From Lancefieldella parvula DSM 20469 (GTDB taxonomy: Bacteria; Actinomycetota; Coriobacteriia; Coriobacteriales; Atopobiaceae): a stretch of 64,000 bases of DNA. The position numbers and the translations under genes are program-made. The stretch spans positions 1,457,501-1,521,500 of the forward strand of contig NC_013203.1 in NCBI RefSeq assembly GCF_000024225.1, given 5' to 3'. Below the pieces are notes generated by a model. It did no database searches. It was not told the origin of the DNA and worked only from the letters and a program-made list of their open reading frames with translations. Of this stretch, positions 28,896-34,090 are shown in pieces. The number at the start of each line of letters is the position of its first letter. Within the stretch, counting starts at the first letter, position 1.

Positions 28896-29609
28896 CTACA
28901 GTCCCAACGCTCGCTTGAGTGCGACCACACGACGGCGAGAAACCGAGATGTGACGCTCCTCAAATCCCTGAATAGTCAACTGAAGGATACCAGCAGAGAT
29001 AACCTCAACATCGTCAACATACTCAAGATTCACGATAAAGCTACGATGAATGCGGAAGAATCCGTGTGGAGCAAGGCGCTCTTCAAGTTTTTGCAAAGAA
29101 ATGGTAGATAGGAAGCGATCGTCTTCTGTATAAATGCAAGAATAATCGTCTTTTGCTTCAATAAAGCGAATCTGATCAATAGGAACAAGAACTTTGCTTC
29201 CACTCTTAATGACGGGAATTCGCTCAATGGTTGCCATAGGAGACTGAGGACGTAGGCGCTCCTCAACCTTATCAAGAGCCTGCTCAAGACGCTCGGTCTC
29301 AACAGGCTTCATTAGGTAATCGACAGCATTAACGCCAAATGCATCCAATGCATACTCACTATATGCGGTAACAAACACAATCTGAGGAGGATTCTTCAAC
29401 TTGTGAAGAGCCTCTGCAAGCTGCATTCCATTTGTCTTAGGCATAGAGATATCAAGGAATATAACCTCAACACGAGACTCCATGAGTTTCTCGACAGCAT
29501 CCCTTGCACTTGTGGCCTCAATGATTTCTTCGAGACGACCAGTTTCCTCAAGTAAGAACTTAAGCTCAGAACGGGCTGGAGCCTCGTCGTCAACAATCAT
29601 GGCACGCAT
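28896..29609 (-). CDS. LytTR-family response regulator
   Basis: About 237 residues: a receiver domain (1-120) with acidic pair DDE, phospho-acceptor Asp in VIFLDISMPK and the VTAYSEYALDAFGVNAVDYLMKP segment, then a LytTR DNA-binding domain (KDDYSCIYTEDDRFL, FFRIHRSFIVNLEYV). The ATG at 29609 has GGGAG nine bases upstream; two earlier ATG codons are less well spaced. It follows the LytS-type kinase by about 48 bases. Regulators of this type often control wall hydrolysis, carbon or competence genes; the target here is unknown. Confidence 0.93.
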   Translation of the reverse strand: MRAMIVDDEAPARSELKFLLEETGRLEEIIEATSARDAVEKLMESRVEVIFLDISMPKTNGMQLAEALHKLKNPPQIVFVTAYSEYALDAFGVNAVDYLMKPVETERLEQALDKVEERLRPQSPMATIERIPVIKSGSKVLVPIDQIRFIEAKDDYSCIYTEDDRFLSTISLQKLEERLAPHGFFRIHRSFIVNLEYVDDVEVISAGILQLTIQGFEERHISVSRRRVVALKRALGL

Positions 29610-29657
29610 GTCATTCATCTCCCAACGGCCTAACGCAGCGTTAAGCAAAACTGTGTA

Positions 29658-30998
29658 CTACTGTGCTGTTACCTGCAGTGCCGCACCTGCAAGCTTGAGT
29701 GTCACGCACGTGCCCTGACCTGGCTTAGACATGATTTCCATGCCAGATCCAGCAGCGTAGAAGCGCTCAGCTCGCTCAGCTACGTTCTTAATGGCAATAC
29801 CCGTACCTTCACTTCTCCCCGAAGAATTGTGCGGAGTAGGGCCTTGACCATTAAGCAAGCGAGAAACAGTCTCTTCATCCATTCCAAGACCATCATCAGC
29901 AACAGATATAAGAATATCATCTTCGTCGCGTGCGACGTGGATGTCAATATGGAGTGCGCCTTCATCTTTCATGGCATGCCTCACTGCATTCTCAACAATA
30001 GGCTGAATCAAAAAAGACGGGACCTGAATGTCTTCGCATCCCTCGTCAACATGCTCAGACTCCTGGATACGTTCTTCTCCAAAACGGGCTTTTTCAATTG
30101 TCAAATACCTGCGTGTTTGTGTCAATTCCTGAGAAAGCGGAATGAGCGAGCCTTGAGAACTCTCAAGTGTGCGACGATAAAACACAGAAAACTCACGAAG
30201 CAAGTCTCGTGCCTTATTAGGATTTGTACGCGTAAGAGATGCAATGGTATTGAGCGTATTAAACAGGAAATGCGGATTAATTTGAGCCTGCAAGGCTTTG
30301 ACCTCGGCCCGAGCGGTCAGTTCTGCCTGACGATCAAGCTCGTAAGATGAAAGTTGTGTGGAGAGAAGCTCACCCAAGCCCTCAGCGATTGCCAACTGCG
30401 TGCGATCAATTTCAATACCGCGGCGATAATACAGTTTGATGGTTCCGACAGGGCGATCCTGAACAATCAACGGAACAATAATGCCAAAGGAACTGCCACC
30501 ATTTCCAAAACCACCTCGCCTTTTTAGCACCTGCTGGCGACTGTCAACCGAGACAAACGTCTCCATGCGCCCACTTTCCAAAACCTCAGTTGCAGGACCA
30601 ACAACTTTTGATCCAGGTACATGTGCAGTTGCAATATCTCCCTCAAAACCCAATACGTACTCCGTATCGGTAATAGAGATAGCGGCAGCTGAAGTTTCTG
30701 AAAGCAATAAAGTACAGATAGTTGGTGCTGTTTCTTGTGACAATCCACCACGTAAAGTCTTAAGCGTCTTTGACGCAACCTCAAGTGTGCGTTCTGTTTC
30801 TTGAGATCTAGTATGTTCATTACCAGGCTGAGTAGTACCGCCAAGAACAATGACCGTGGCAAGTCCTCCGCCCGCAACAAGAGCGGCAAACAGATTGTCT
30901 GTTACGACACTCCAAGAAAGCAAACCCAGCAATACACAGGCAAAAAGGACCAAGACCACCTTGGTTGACCTCTGCATATACTGAGCAAGCCCCTGCAT
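29658..30998 (-). CDS. LytS-type sensor histidine kinase
   Basis: 446 residues: two short N-terminal membrane helices (about 14-33 and 37-53), a GAF-like region (about 85-235), then the His_kinase domain with QINPHFLFNTLNTI, in which the first His of the PHFLFNTL motif is phosphorylated, and the ATPase with VENAVRHAMKD, ADDGLGMD and GTGIAIKNV. The receptor for stimulus is probably the GAF region rather than the short extracellular loop. Lies between queT and the LytTR regulator; starts 6 bases after the queT stop, so the three form an operon. Confidence 0.92.
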   Translation of the reverse strand: MQGLAQYMQRSTKVVLVLFACVLLGLLSWSVVTDNLFAALVAGGGLATVIVLGGTTQPGNEHTRSQETERTLEVASKTLKTLRGGLSQETAPTICTLLLSETSAAAISITDTEYVLGFEGDIATAHVPGSKVVGPATEVLESGRMETFVSVDSRQQVLKRRGGFGNGGSSFGIIVPLIVQDRPVGTIKLYYRRGIEIDRTQLAIAEGLGELLSTQLSSYELDRQAELTARAEVKALQAQINPHFLFNTLNTIASLTRTNPNKARDLLREFSVFYRRTLESSQGSLIPLSQELTQTRRYLTIEKARFGEERIQESEHVDEGCEDIQVPSFLIQPIVENAVRHAMKDEGALHIDIHVARDEDDILISVADDGLGMDEETVSRLLNGQGPTPHNSSGRSEGTGIAIKNVAERAERFYAAGSGMEIMSKPGQGTCVTLKLAGAALQVTAQ

Positions 30999-31004
30999 AG
31001 CTAT

Positions 31005-31631
31005 CTAGTTCCCTACTGATTCTGTGGTAGAACCCTCAGAAAAAGCAAGCTGCTGAGGCAAAGGCGAATGCTTAAGTGCACGAGCTAAAGGCACACCAAG
31101 TACATAAAGAACAACAGCCTCTCCGAGTCCTGTGGTAATAAAGCCAAACAAGAACATAAGAGGATACGATCCATCAAGCTCTATAGTAGTAAATGGAATT
31201 GTGTAAAATCCCAACCCCTGAAGCAAAATTGGAAGATACGCAGAAACAATAACCGCATTTGCAAGCACTGGTCCGAGAAGGGCGAGCGGCACATTTTTTC
31301 TGTTCTTCCAGGTAAACCATGCACCAAGGGCAGTTGCTAAGGAACCAAAAACAACGTCTAGCAATCCTAAAGCTCCCGTGCCGGAAATAACCATATTCGC
31401 AAGGTTGGCGATAACGCAACCGAGTGTAAGTCCTGGAATTGCATCAGCAGTAAAAAGTGCAATGACAACGACTGCCTCAGAAATACGGAACTGCACGGGA
31501 CCCCAGGCCAGACCGCCTAAGAAGAGAAGGGTTGCAAGCGTAAGCGCTGCGTAAAGAGCTGCAATGATACCAATACGTGCAAGGCGCTGAGCGCGCTGTT
31601 TTGTTGCATAAGCTGAAGAAACCTGTGGCAA
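31005..31631 (-). CDS. queT: QueT-family transporter (queuosine precursor, predicted)
   Basis: 208 residues with about six hydrophobic segments, matching the QueT family of ECF-type S components: LARIGIIAALYAALTL, the FRISEAVVVIALF block, GLTLGCVIANL and ALLGPVLANAVIVSAYLP. These proteins are thought to import queuosine precursors. A TTG start at 31631 with AAGGGG upstream is the best option. No classical preQ1 riboswitch is recognised in the roughly 215-base leader. Its operon position before a two-component system is unexplained. Confidence 0.82.
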   Translation of the reverse strand: MPQVSSAYATKQRAQRLARIGIIAALYAALTLATLLFLGGLAWGPVQFRISEAVVVIALFTADAIPGLTLGCVIANLANMVISGTGALGLLDVVFGSLATALGAWFTWKNRKNVPLALLGPVLANAVIVSAYLPILLQGLGFYTIPFTTIELDGSYPLMFLFGFITTGLGEAVVLYVLGVPLARALKHSPLPQQLAFSEGSTTESVGN

Positions 31632-31847: not shown

Positions 31848-32594
31848 CTAGTAATGCAAATGCATTCCTGGATAGACCATCTCGCGAGCATGCTTTTGAT
31901 ATGCAGCAATAGCCTCTTCTTCAAAGGCAAGAGGAGTGTCTTTTTCACCCGCCATATCCAAAATCCAACGTGTGAGGTAAGGGTTGAGTGGAAGCAGCGG
32001 ACCAATAAGCCAGGTGGCAATAGCGTTCTTGCGTCGGAAACCTTCCAACTTGCTTTCTTTATTGATGCCAAAACCTACCTTATTTTTAAGAAAATGGCAG
32101 TTGGAGTTATCTCCCTCAGTAAGCGTGAACTGCATCTTAAAGCCAACAACAGTAAAAGGCTCTTTGCCGTTGCCGGGATCAAACTCTCCCACCTGAACGT
32201 CGTGGAAGCGCTGAGGCATATAACGAGTAGTCGTGAATTTGAACAAACCCAAGCCTTTAATTTCAGAGCCGTCTGGATTAACGATTTTCTCGCCAAAAAG
32301 CTCTGAAGCGTTACCGGTAAACAGCATAGGGACGCCCTGATCAGCCAGTTCAGCCAGTCTATCCTTGTAAGGCATGAGGCGAGAAATAATAAGCTCTTGC
32401 TGAGCCTCTGTCATGCCACCCATGATGATTGCTGACGGTGTATGTTCCACAAAGTAAGGCGTCGCGGCATGAGAGGTATACACAAAGTTCTCTTTTGGGA
32501 GACAAGCCTCCAGGTAGAGAGCATTTCCGTTATCTCCACCCTGGTTGCCATACTCTGGATAAAGAATCTCAATCTTAGTTGCTGGATTACTCAT
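31848..32594 (-). CDS. gatD: GatD-like glutamine amidotransferase subunit (MurT partner), catalytic residues missing
   Basis: 248 residues, a type 1 (CobB/CobQ-like) amidotransferase domain that in MurT/GatD supplies ammonia to amidate lipid II glutamate. Family features are present (YPEYGNQGGDNGNA, AIIMGGMTEAQ and GPLLPLNPYLTRW). But the nucleophile elbow, normally with Cys (CGGYQ-like), reads LFTGNASELFG, with Gly94 where Cys is expected. The catalytic His position in the x-H-GPLLPxNP motif is Ile197 in ATWLIGPLLPLNP. Both S. aureus catalytic residues (Cys94, His189) are thus absent. The gene overlaps murT by 8 bases, so pairing is clear. It is probably not a working glutaminase, or uses another nucleophile. 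Confidence 0.85.
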   Translation of the reverse strand: MSNPATKIEILYPEYGNQGGDNGNALYLEACLPKENFVYTSHAATPYFVEHTPSAIIMGGMTEAQQELIISRLMPYKDRLAELADQGVPMLFTGNASELFGEKIVNPDGSEIKGLGLFKFTTTRYMPQRFHDVQVGEFDPGNGKEPFTVVGFKMQFTLTEGDNSNCHFLKNKVGFGINKESKLEGFRRKNAIATWLIGPLLPLNPYLTRWILDMAGEKDTPLAFEEEAIAAYQKHAREMVYPGMHLHY

Positions 32595-33999
32595 TGGAGG
32601 CCTCCATCTGTTTTAAGCGCTCAATGATACGGTTTCTGCTGATATCAGCAATACCACCGTTGTAGAGGCCATGTGCATAGAAAACGTGTTGGCAAGCATT
32701 GAGATCAACCAGGTCAGCAGTCTCTTCAGGAGAGTTTGCTACAAAGGTCTTAGCAGGATCAACGCCCGCAAGTCTGAGTCTGAGCTGCAGATCAAGTGAT
32801 GTATCACCGTAAATAATGACCTGCTTAACACTTGGATCTTGCAGGAACTCAAAGTCGGTCTGGTAGTACCAGCCAATGTACTCTGTCTGGTCCTTAGCTT
32901 TTGCCATATATGCATCAGCAATCATGATGATAATTGCCTTATCGCCTGGTTGTTTGCGCAGGATATCAATAGTAACTGAGGTTGCCGTGTCATTCTCGCC
33001 CTTAGAAGCCATGCTAATAAGGCGACGACCGTTGTAATCAATCTCGTTATACCTGGAAGAAGCAATGTTAACGCGCTGCAAAGACGCGGCGATAGTTGCA
33101 GGCGCAAGACCCATCTCACGCGCGGTAACAATAGCTACAAACAGGTTGTAGAGGTTAACGATAGAGTAGCTGTTGAGCTTATATTCGTACGTTGGTGCAC
33201 CCTCGTGGCAGTGTTCTTTGACCACAAACTTGCCAGTCTCTGGCTCTACTGAGATAACCTCATAATCAGGAGTTGGATTGGTATACCCGCATTCCTCGCA
33301 AGTTGCGTGGCCAAGATGTCTGAGATGAGCGTAATCCCACTTGAGCTTGCCGCCACATTTTGGACATGCGGTAAGGTCTGAAACAATGCCTACAGGATCC
33401 GCAGTATCATCAGCCAACCTTGCAATTGAGTAATACGTACGATGAGTACATTGAGGGGCAAGTCTGCAGCTAATCATGTCATCTGCGTTCAAAATCAGAT
33501 GAGTTGAAGCAGGGATACCCTTATCCATAACGTCAAACACATAGTCTGGCGTTGCACTGCGAGAAAACGTATCGCGGAACAAATTAGTAACGGACAAAAT
33601 ATCAGGCTGCAAATAAGGAAAAATGCGAGGTCCAGAGAGCTCATCAAACTCCATAACTGCAAGCTTAGTCTTTGAAGCGCCCTTCCATGTGGCGTTCTTT
33701 GCAAATGAGCTTGCAAAACCACTAGAAATATTACCGCCAACGCGATTAGTAACAGTCTGATAACCGTTATCAGCGAGAAGATCGTTGAGCAAGTTATTAG
33801 TGGTTGTCTTGCCATTAGTACCTGTGATAAAGACAACCTGTTCTGGCTTAGCGATATCCCCTAAAAATGCAGGGTCAATGGCCTCCGCAATAAATCCTGG
33901 TAGAGTTCCACCTTCGTGATTAGTCAACTTAAGTGCTGCAAGTGTTGCTTTAGCAGCGAGAAAAGCTACAGGAAATAATCTGCTCTTTTTTTGTGCCAC
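32587..33999 (-). CDS. murT: MurT-like lipid II isoglutaminyl synthase, Mur ligase subunit
   Basis: About 470 residues. A Mur ligase ATP loop GTNGKTTTNNLL, then a four-cysteine zinc ribbon characteristic of MurT (CPKCGGKLKW...CEECGY), and a C-terminal DUF1727 domain. With GatD it amidates the alpha-carboxyl of D-Glu in lipid II. The start is a GTG at 33999 with GGGAG five bases upstream; an ATG at 34011 has no ribosome site. The overlapping gatD-like partner lacks its Cys/His, which raises the question of the ammonia source. Confidence 0.92.
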   Translation of the reverse strand: MAQKKSRLFPVAFLAAKATLAALKLTNHEGGTLPGFIAEAIDPAFLGDIAKPEQVVFITGTNGKTTTNNLLNDLLADNGYQTVTNRVGGNISSGFASSFAKNATWKGASKTKLAVMEFDELSGPRIFPYLQPDILSVTNLFRDTFSRSATPDYVFDVMDKGIPASTHLILNADDMISCRLAPQCTHRTYYSIARLADDTADPVGIVSDLTACPKCGGKLKWDYAHLRHLGHATCEECGYTNPTPDYEVISVEPETGKFVVKEHCHEGAPTYEYKLNSYSIVNLYNLFVAIVTAREMGLAPATIAASLQRVNIASSRYNEIDYNGRRLISMASKGENDTATSVTIDILRKQPGDKAIIIMIADAYMAKAKDQTEYIGWYYQTDFEFLQDPSVKQVIIYGDTSLDLQLRLRLAGVDPAKTFVANSPEETADLVDLNACQHVFYAHGLYNGGIADISRNRIIERLKQMEASNE

Positions 34000-34090
34000 A
34001 GTAACTCCCATCGTGAGCAAAGTCTCTCTAGTTTATCACCTCACGAGAAGGGCTTGAAGAACACAGGTCTTCTCGTCAAAAATGTCGCAT

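Follow-up and report, generated by a model that had tools for sequence, protein, structure and literature searches.

Sequence evidence suggests, with good confidence, that the MurT- and GatD-like proteins encoded in the window (the whole 64,000-nucleotide stretch of the Lancefieldella parvula genome that was analysed) form a functional ligase that is independent of glutamine: three residues of the glutaminase triad are lost, the ligase site is kept, both states are conserved throughout a clade, and a parallel loss has arisen independently in a second lineage. We propose that the pair is a working ATP-dependent Mur-type ligase that gave up glutamine, with the variant GatD lacking catalysis and serving as an indispensable structural subunit (a scaffold). 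The variant MurT would phosphorylate the carboxylate of an acceptor, which homology suggests is the alpha-carboxyl of D-Glu in a lipid-linked peptidoglycan precursor; an amine would then attack it directly from solution, in place of the ammonia delivered by GatD. An amino acid or another amine appears a more likely nucleophile than ammonia; the full proposal, with its acceptor and a nucleophile other than ammonia, falls just short of an even chance.

The GatD-like protein consists of a GATase_3 domain scoring over the Pfam cut-off, and among proteins of known structure S. aureus GatD (E = 6e-17) and the streptococcal GatDs are most closely related to it. In S. aureus, C94, H189 and MurT D349 are required for glutamine-dependent or glutaminase activity. 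Alignment to S. aureus GatD bore out the original prediction that the window protein lacks this Cys and His: Cys94 aligns exactly with Gly94, and His189 with Ile197. The absence of any other cysteine around the elbow was likewise confirmed, as the further cysteines, Cys31 (present in 28 of 30 relatives) and Cys166 (6 of 30), are neither of them close to it. Arg129, invariant in the variant GatDs (Table 1), is likely the equivalent of the glutamine-capturing Arg128, from which the profile alignment displaces it by one column. Restoration of glutaminase activity by a displaced Cys/His pair, which would have overturned the prediction, was looked for by alignment, and no such pair was found across the 30 scoreable relatives, in which no Cys and no His is invariant. 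Such a displaced pair could draw on the nearly invariant Cys31, but that residue would by homology lie at the end of helix 1, at the MurT interface and outside the pocket, and MurT D349 is lost as well; we regard this explanation as very improbable. The predicted 8-base overlap of gatD with murT, as expected for a partner, was found as well. The L. parvula genome (1,543,805 bp, one contig) holds a single GATase_3 gene and a single MurT_C gene, and a search for these two domains returned no second, canonical MurT/GatD pair elsewhere in it.

Table 1. Features of the variant murT/gatD pair in the window
Feature	Position	Strand	Description
gatD (variant)	31848..32594	-	class-I glutaminase fold without catalytic Cys or His; GATase_3, 248 aa
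Former His loop TWLIGPLLPLNP	31980..32015	-	Ile197 replaces His189; GP and NP retained
MPQRF including Arg129	32205..32219	-	Arg129 invariant in 30/30 variant GatDs
Former nucleophile elbow LFTGNASELFG	32292..32324	-	Gly94 replaces Cys94
GGDNGN motif	32523..32540	-	retained from canonical GatD; Asp/Glu 19 region, MurT interface
8-base overlap, murT stop and gatD ATG start	32587..32594	-	
murT (variant)	32587..34020	-	MurT-like Mur ligase; MurT_C, Mur_ligase_M domains
TEYIGWYYQTDFE	32848..32886	-	in place of canonical DGxDxSWxWDVDFE; D349 changed to Tyr and D355 to Gln, with loss of the negative gate
SKGENDTATS	32977..33006	-	near ATP ribose; in place of canonical AKNPxGxNQ loop
Zinc ribbon CPKC...CEEC	33289..33366	-	intact
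FRDTFSRSATPD	33544..33579	-	rewritten ammonia-channel loop; canonical FRDQxDRxGExD
EFDEL	33637..33651	-	Mg/ATP acidic residues; intact
RVGGN	33730..33744	-	acceptor-carboxylate Asn (S. pneumoniae MurT N85); intact
P-loop GTNGKTTT	33799..33822	-	intact

The partner MurT, whose true start may be an ATG lying three codons downstream of the TTG, had been described as intact; this holds for its ligase site, but Tyr stands at D349 and both the ammonia gate and the ammonia loop have been remodelled. K59, T60, N85, E108, D110, E111, N130, R138, N267 and the hinge residue R298 are kept in 30/30 variant MurTs, as are the four zinc cysteines. The D349 position is occupied by Tyr in 27 and by Phe in 3 of the 30, versus Asp in 84/84 canonical MurTs aligned. 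D355, the second acid of the negative gate that faces GatD, is Gln and S351 is Gly in all 30, and other residues also replace D346, G347 and, in the ammonia loop, D137 and E141. The SKGENxTATS segment may resemble a MurD loop. Following the residue roles assigned in MurT (acceptor carboxylate N85, Mg/ATP, gate and ammonia loop [PMC6085368]), the ligase half of the variant MurT is whole, and everything that would produce ammonia from glutamine or pass it on is gone.

Named GTDB contigs were scanned for the variant, which yielded 30 variant loci, all from Coriobacteria or their uncultured relatives (Lancefieldella, Atopobium, Collinsella and rumen Coriobacteriaceae). Both Cys94 and His189 are missing from 30/30 scoreable relatives (Lancefieldella, Collinsella and rumen Coriobacteriales), with Gly or His at the former and Ile or Leu at the latter position in every one. 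All loci share the GatD signatures MLFT[GH][NS]AxELLG (elbow) and TWxxGPxLPxNP (His loop) and the MurT signatures KGENxTA, for KNPxG, and EYxGWYYQxDFE, for the D349 loop. The comparison with other Atopobiaceae suggested alongside the original prediction found the variant to be patchy in that family and present in Collinsella too: variant GatDs (44 to 100% identity to the window protein) occur in 19 of 121 Atopobiaceae genomes, and most of the other genomes carry a canonical GatD of about 24 to 31% identity to it.

In nearly all variant loci murT and gatD overlap, are adjacent or are fused, and in 18 loci they form one protein. An AlphaFold2 model of one such natural fusion, from C. tanakaei An791 (mean pLDDT 82.5, pTM 0.81), matched both S. 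aureus MurT (6gs2_B; Z 26.6) and S. aureus GatD (5n9m_A; Z 25.1 over 234 residues), so that the modelled folds place the pair in the MurT/GatD structural family. The gene order is inverted, with gatD ahead of murT, in L054, L058, L060 and L061, and L065 (Collinsella vaginalis) carries two variant murT-gatD pairs in tandem, the second MurT having KGENGMACS instead of KGENATAAS. The fusions also bear on the suggestion that ammonia is borrowed from another amidotransferase docking on the variant GatD or MurT. The cell must hold other glutamine amidotransferases, but the genome has no second GATase_3 gene, the gate for ammonia entry is altered in the variant MurT, and the dead domain stays in place in the fused proteins; borrowing is left without support, and we consider it decidedly unlikely.

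The variant pair is under strong purifying selection (dN/dS 0.01 to 0.03): comparing L. parvula with strain BS2 gave dN/dS values of 0.029 for gatD and 0.012 for murT, and L. rimae was too divergent for dS to be estimated. In a quick tree of MurT, the variant forms one clade beside the canonical Coriobacteriales, with a stem of 1.9 and tips of 0.05 to 0.5, branch lengths that indicate a burst of change followed by tight conservation. A sequencing error, chance or a pseudogene as the cause of the Cys/His loss was ruled out by the 30/30 conservation together with dN/dS. The same data bear on whether the pair is inactive or purely regulatory, with lipid II no longer modified. Loss of the glutaminase triad would fit such a role; the ATP, Mg and acceptor residues, invariant in all 30, and the low dN/dS make loss of function unlikely, and we hold an inactive or regulatory pair to be improbable. 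Of the earlier suggestions, a GatD that is catalytically dead yet still paired with MurT is thus supported and pure regulation of MurT is not, while the idea that the pair no longer amidates lipid II survives in altered form, as the rewritten gate and the parallel described below raise the ligation of something else.

The variant usually takes the place of the canonical pair, since a canonical GatD was also present in 2 of the 19 Atopobiaceae carriers versus 93 of 102 non-carriers (Fisher P = 2e-12, kinship ignored). Variant neighbourhoods, read with open reading frames chosen with codon usage, differ from those of the canonical genes, which points to a second locus that took over rather than to decay in place; in-place decay of the canonical locus was rejected, as no nifJ, arcC, LytTR or queT match was found in 20/20 canonical neighbourhoods. 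In the window, gatD is followed by genes for a LytS-like kinase, a LytTR regulator and a QueT-like transporter (28896-30998 and 31005-31631), and the kinase and regulator recur in 21 to 23 of 31 variant loci. Of 31 named variant loci, 13 (L048, L049, L050, L052, L053, L054, L057, L058, L060, L061, L063, L065 and L074) have the carbamate kinase gene arcC nearby, against 0/20 canonical loci; it is mostly within 3 kb of murT/gatD, upstream in Lancefieldella and downstream in Collinsella. Genuine as this linkage is, it may reflect synteny passed down by descent, because nifJ shows it as well, and in L. parvula itself arcC is a long way from the pair.

A phylum-wide MurT survey, in which its scores were weak, brought up a second lineage, family f83. 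Cys94 was missing from the f83 GatDs in 37/37 genomes checked, replaced by Gly, Ala, Ser or Thr, and His189 is often lost and retained in many. Both residues were intact in 85 canonical GatDs (34 genomes from eight other families of f83's order, and 51 further canonical ones). A joint clade of f83 and the coriobacterial variant was rejected (P = 0.0057), which rules out a shared origin, and the loss in f83 is a second, independent one. The f83 MurT keeps D349 and an intact ATP site, has no zinc ribbon, and carries Asp in place of N267 in 26/26; the two lineages are therefore not identical solutions. In the first loci read (of L126-L129 and L150-L185), the pair is flanked by genes for an rpoD-type sigma factor and an alanine racemase-like protein, and the GatD matches of three genomes (G769, G813 and G794) each contain one internal stop codon and may be pseudogenes. 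Very probably f83 is the family Microbacteriaceae, judging from its 16S sequence (92% identity to Arthrobacter, with signatures that we take to be of Microbacterium type), its many genera and its small genomes, down to 0.9 to 1.4 Mb as in Rhodoluna. Tropheryma genomes are likewise small.

Microbacteriaceae have group B peptidoglycan, in which a cross-bridge amino acid sits on D-Glu (PMC10978784); in Clavibacter, D-Dab connects D-Glu to D-Ala (PMC9603630). Because the free carboxyl of D-Glu is the bridge site in such walls, a MurT using ammonia only would be in competition with bridge formation. A MurT whose GatD is dead may be an amino acid ligase acting on the alpha-carboxyl of D-Glu in lipid-linked peptidoglycan precursors, which in Microbacteriaceae would attach the amino acid that begins the group B cross-bridge and in Lancefieldella and Collinsella, in a separately evolved version, would load an amine; this is a tentative reading, distinctly short of an even chance. 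We found no report in the literature of an enzyme that attaches this first bridge residue, nor any in the open literature of Collinsella wall types. A D-Glu-alpha-Gly linkage is present in Micrococcus luteus. Amidated D-Glu has been reported among C. michiganensis muropeptides (PMC9603630), so a MurT with a dead GatD may also use ammonia. The A. parvulum peptidoglycan is reported to be of type A4alpha, L-Lys-D-Asp, with no extra amino acid, and the fine structure at D-Glu is absent from that account (PMC3035223); this composition fits free or amidated D-Glu better than an added amino acid. A D-Asp ligase for the A4 bridge was considered and is not favoured, since Olsenella uli has an L-Orn-D-Asp wall and yet neither it nor A. 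minutum is among the variant carriers found.

The closest experimental counterpart is the engineered S. aureus GatD C94G described by Muench et al., which together with S. aureus MurT lacked any glutamine-dependent activity and retained full NH3-dependent activity at pH 8.5; S. aureus MurT by itself was inactive (PMC3266927). The window pair resembles a natural form of this mutant, which makes a scaffold GatD with a MurT fed directly with an amine the best-supported reading. Like C94G it has Gly at the nucleophile position and a predicted intact amine-dependent ligase activity (PMC3266927), but it is natural and clade-wide, has lost the His and D349 too, and has an adapted MurT. The use of free ammonia raised in the original prediction is hence viable, and the pair may be an ammonia-dependent isoglutaminyl synthase that still forms D-isoglutamine on lipid II from free NH3, with GatD as scaffold only. 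Such an enzyme would reproduce the C94G phenotype, and it accords with the replacement of the canonical pair in most carriers, the A. parvulum wall composition, the amidated D-Glu of Clavibacter and the proximity of carbamate kinase, which yields NH3 and ATP, to many variant loci. The acidic gate and ammonia loop are, however, missing from the variant MurT, S. aureus MurT uses free NH3 at pH 8.5 and not at 7.5 (PMC3266927), the arcC linkage is open to the reservations given above, and f83 would go unexplained if that family truly has group B walls; we regard ammonia dependence as possible and on balance doubtful. The loss of the gate and loop, together with the independent loss of the GatD Cys in f83, is what leans the proposed glutamine-independent ligase towards an amino acid or other amine.

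The pair shares with MurT/GatD of S. aureus and S. pneumoniae both folds, the gene pairing, the P-loop, the Mg and acceptor residues and the zinc ribbon. Unlike them, it lacks Cys94, His189 and MurT D349, its gate and ammonia loop are replaced, and KGENxTATS stands where canonical MurT has the KNPxG loop. With f83 it has in common a GatD lacking the catalytic Cys and a neighbouring, diverged MurT whose ATP site is intact, and differs in origin, D349, zinc ribbon and the frequent retention of His in f83. The archaeal methanogen MurT-like protein is similarly a MurT homologue that works without a glutaminase partner, but there GatD is wholly absent rather than dead (PMC11915815). Three defining features of a glutamine-hydrolysing lipid II isoglutaminyl synthase that were tested (Cys94, His189 and MurT D349) are thus absent, and the P-loop, the Mg and acceptor-carboxylate residues and the murT/gatD adjacency are present; the pair should not be annotated as that enzyme. 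We found no report of a natural GatD without its Cys in the open literature, most subscription papers lying outside the search.

Several Gram-positive pathogens cannot do without the amidation of D-Glu by MurT/GatD, which is a drug target, and D-Glu modification is thought to influence NOD sensing. The two separate lineages provide a large natural set of pairs that have been retained with a dead glutaminase. Should the variant pair ligate an amino acid, it would offer a candidate for the gene that starts group B cross-bridges; should it use ammonia, it would be an isoglutaminyl synthase that is naturally independent of glutamine. In both cases, the variant pair would escape glutaminase inhibitors, automatic annotation of its genes as glutamine-hydrolysing is wrong, and the modification of D-Glu by oral and gut Coriobacteria needs to be measured again.
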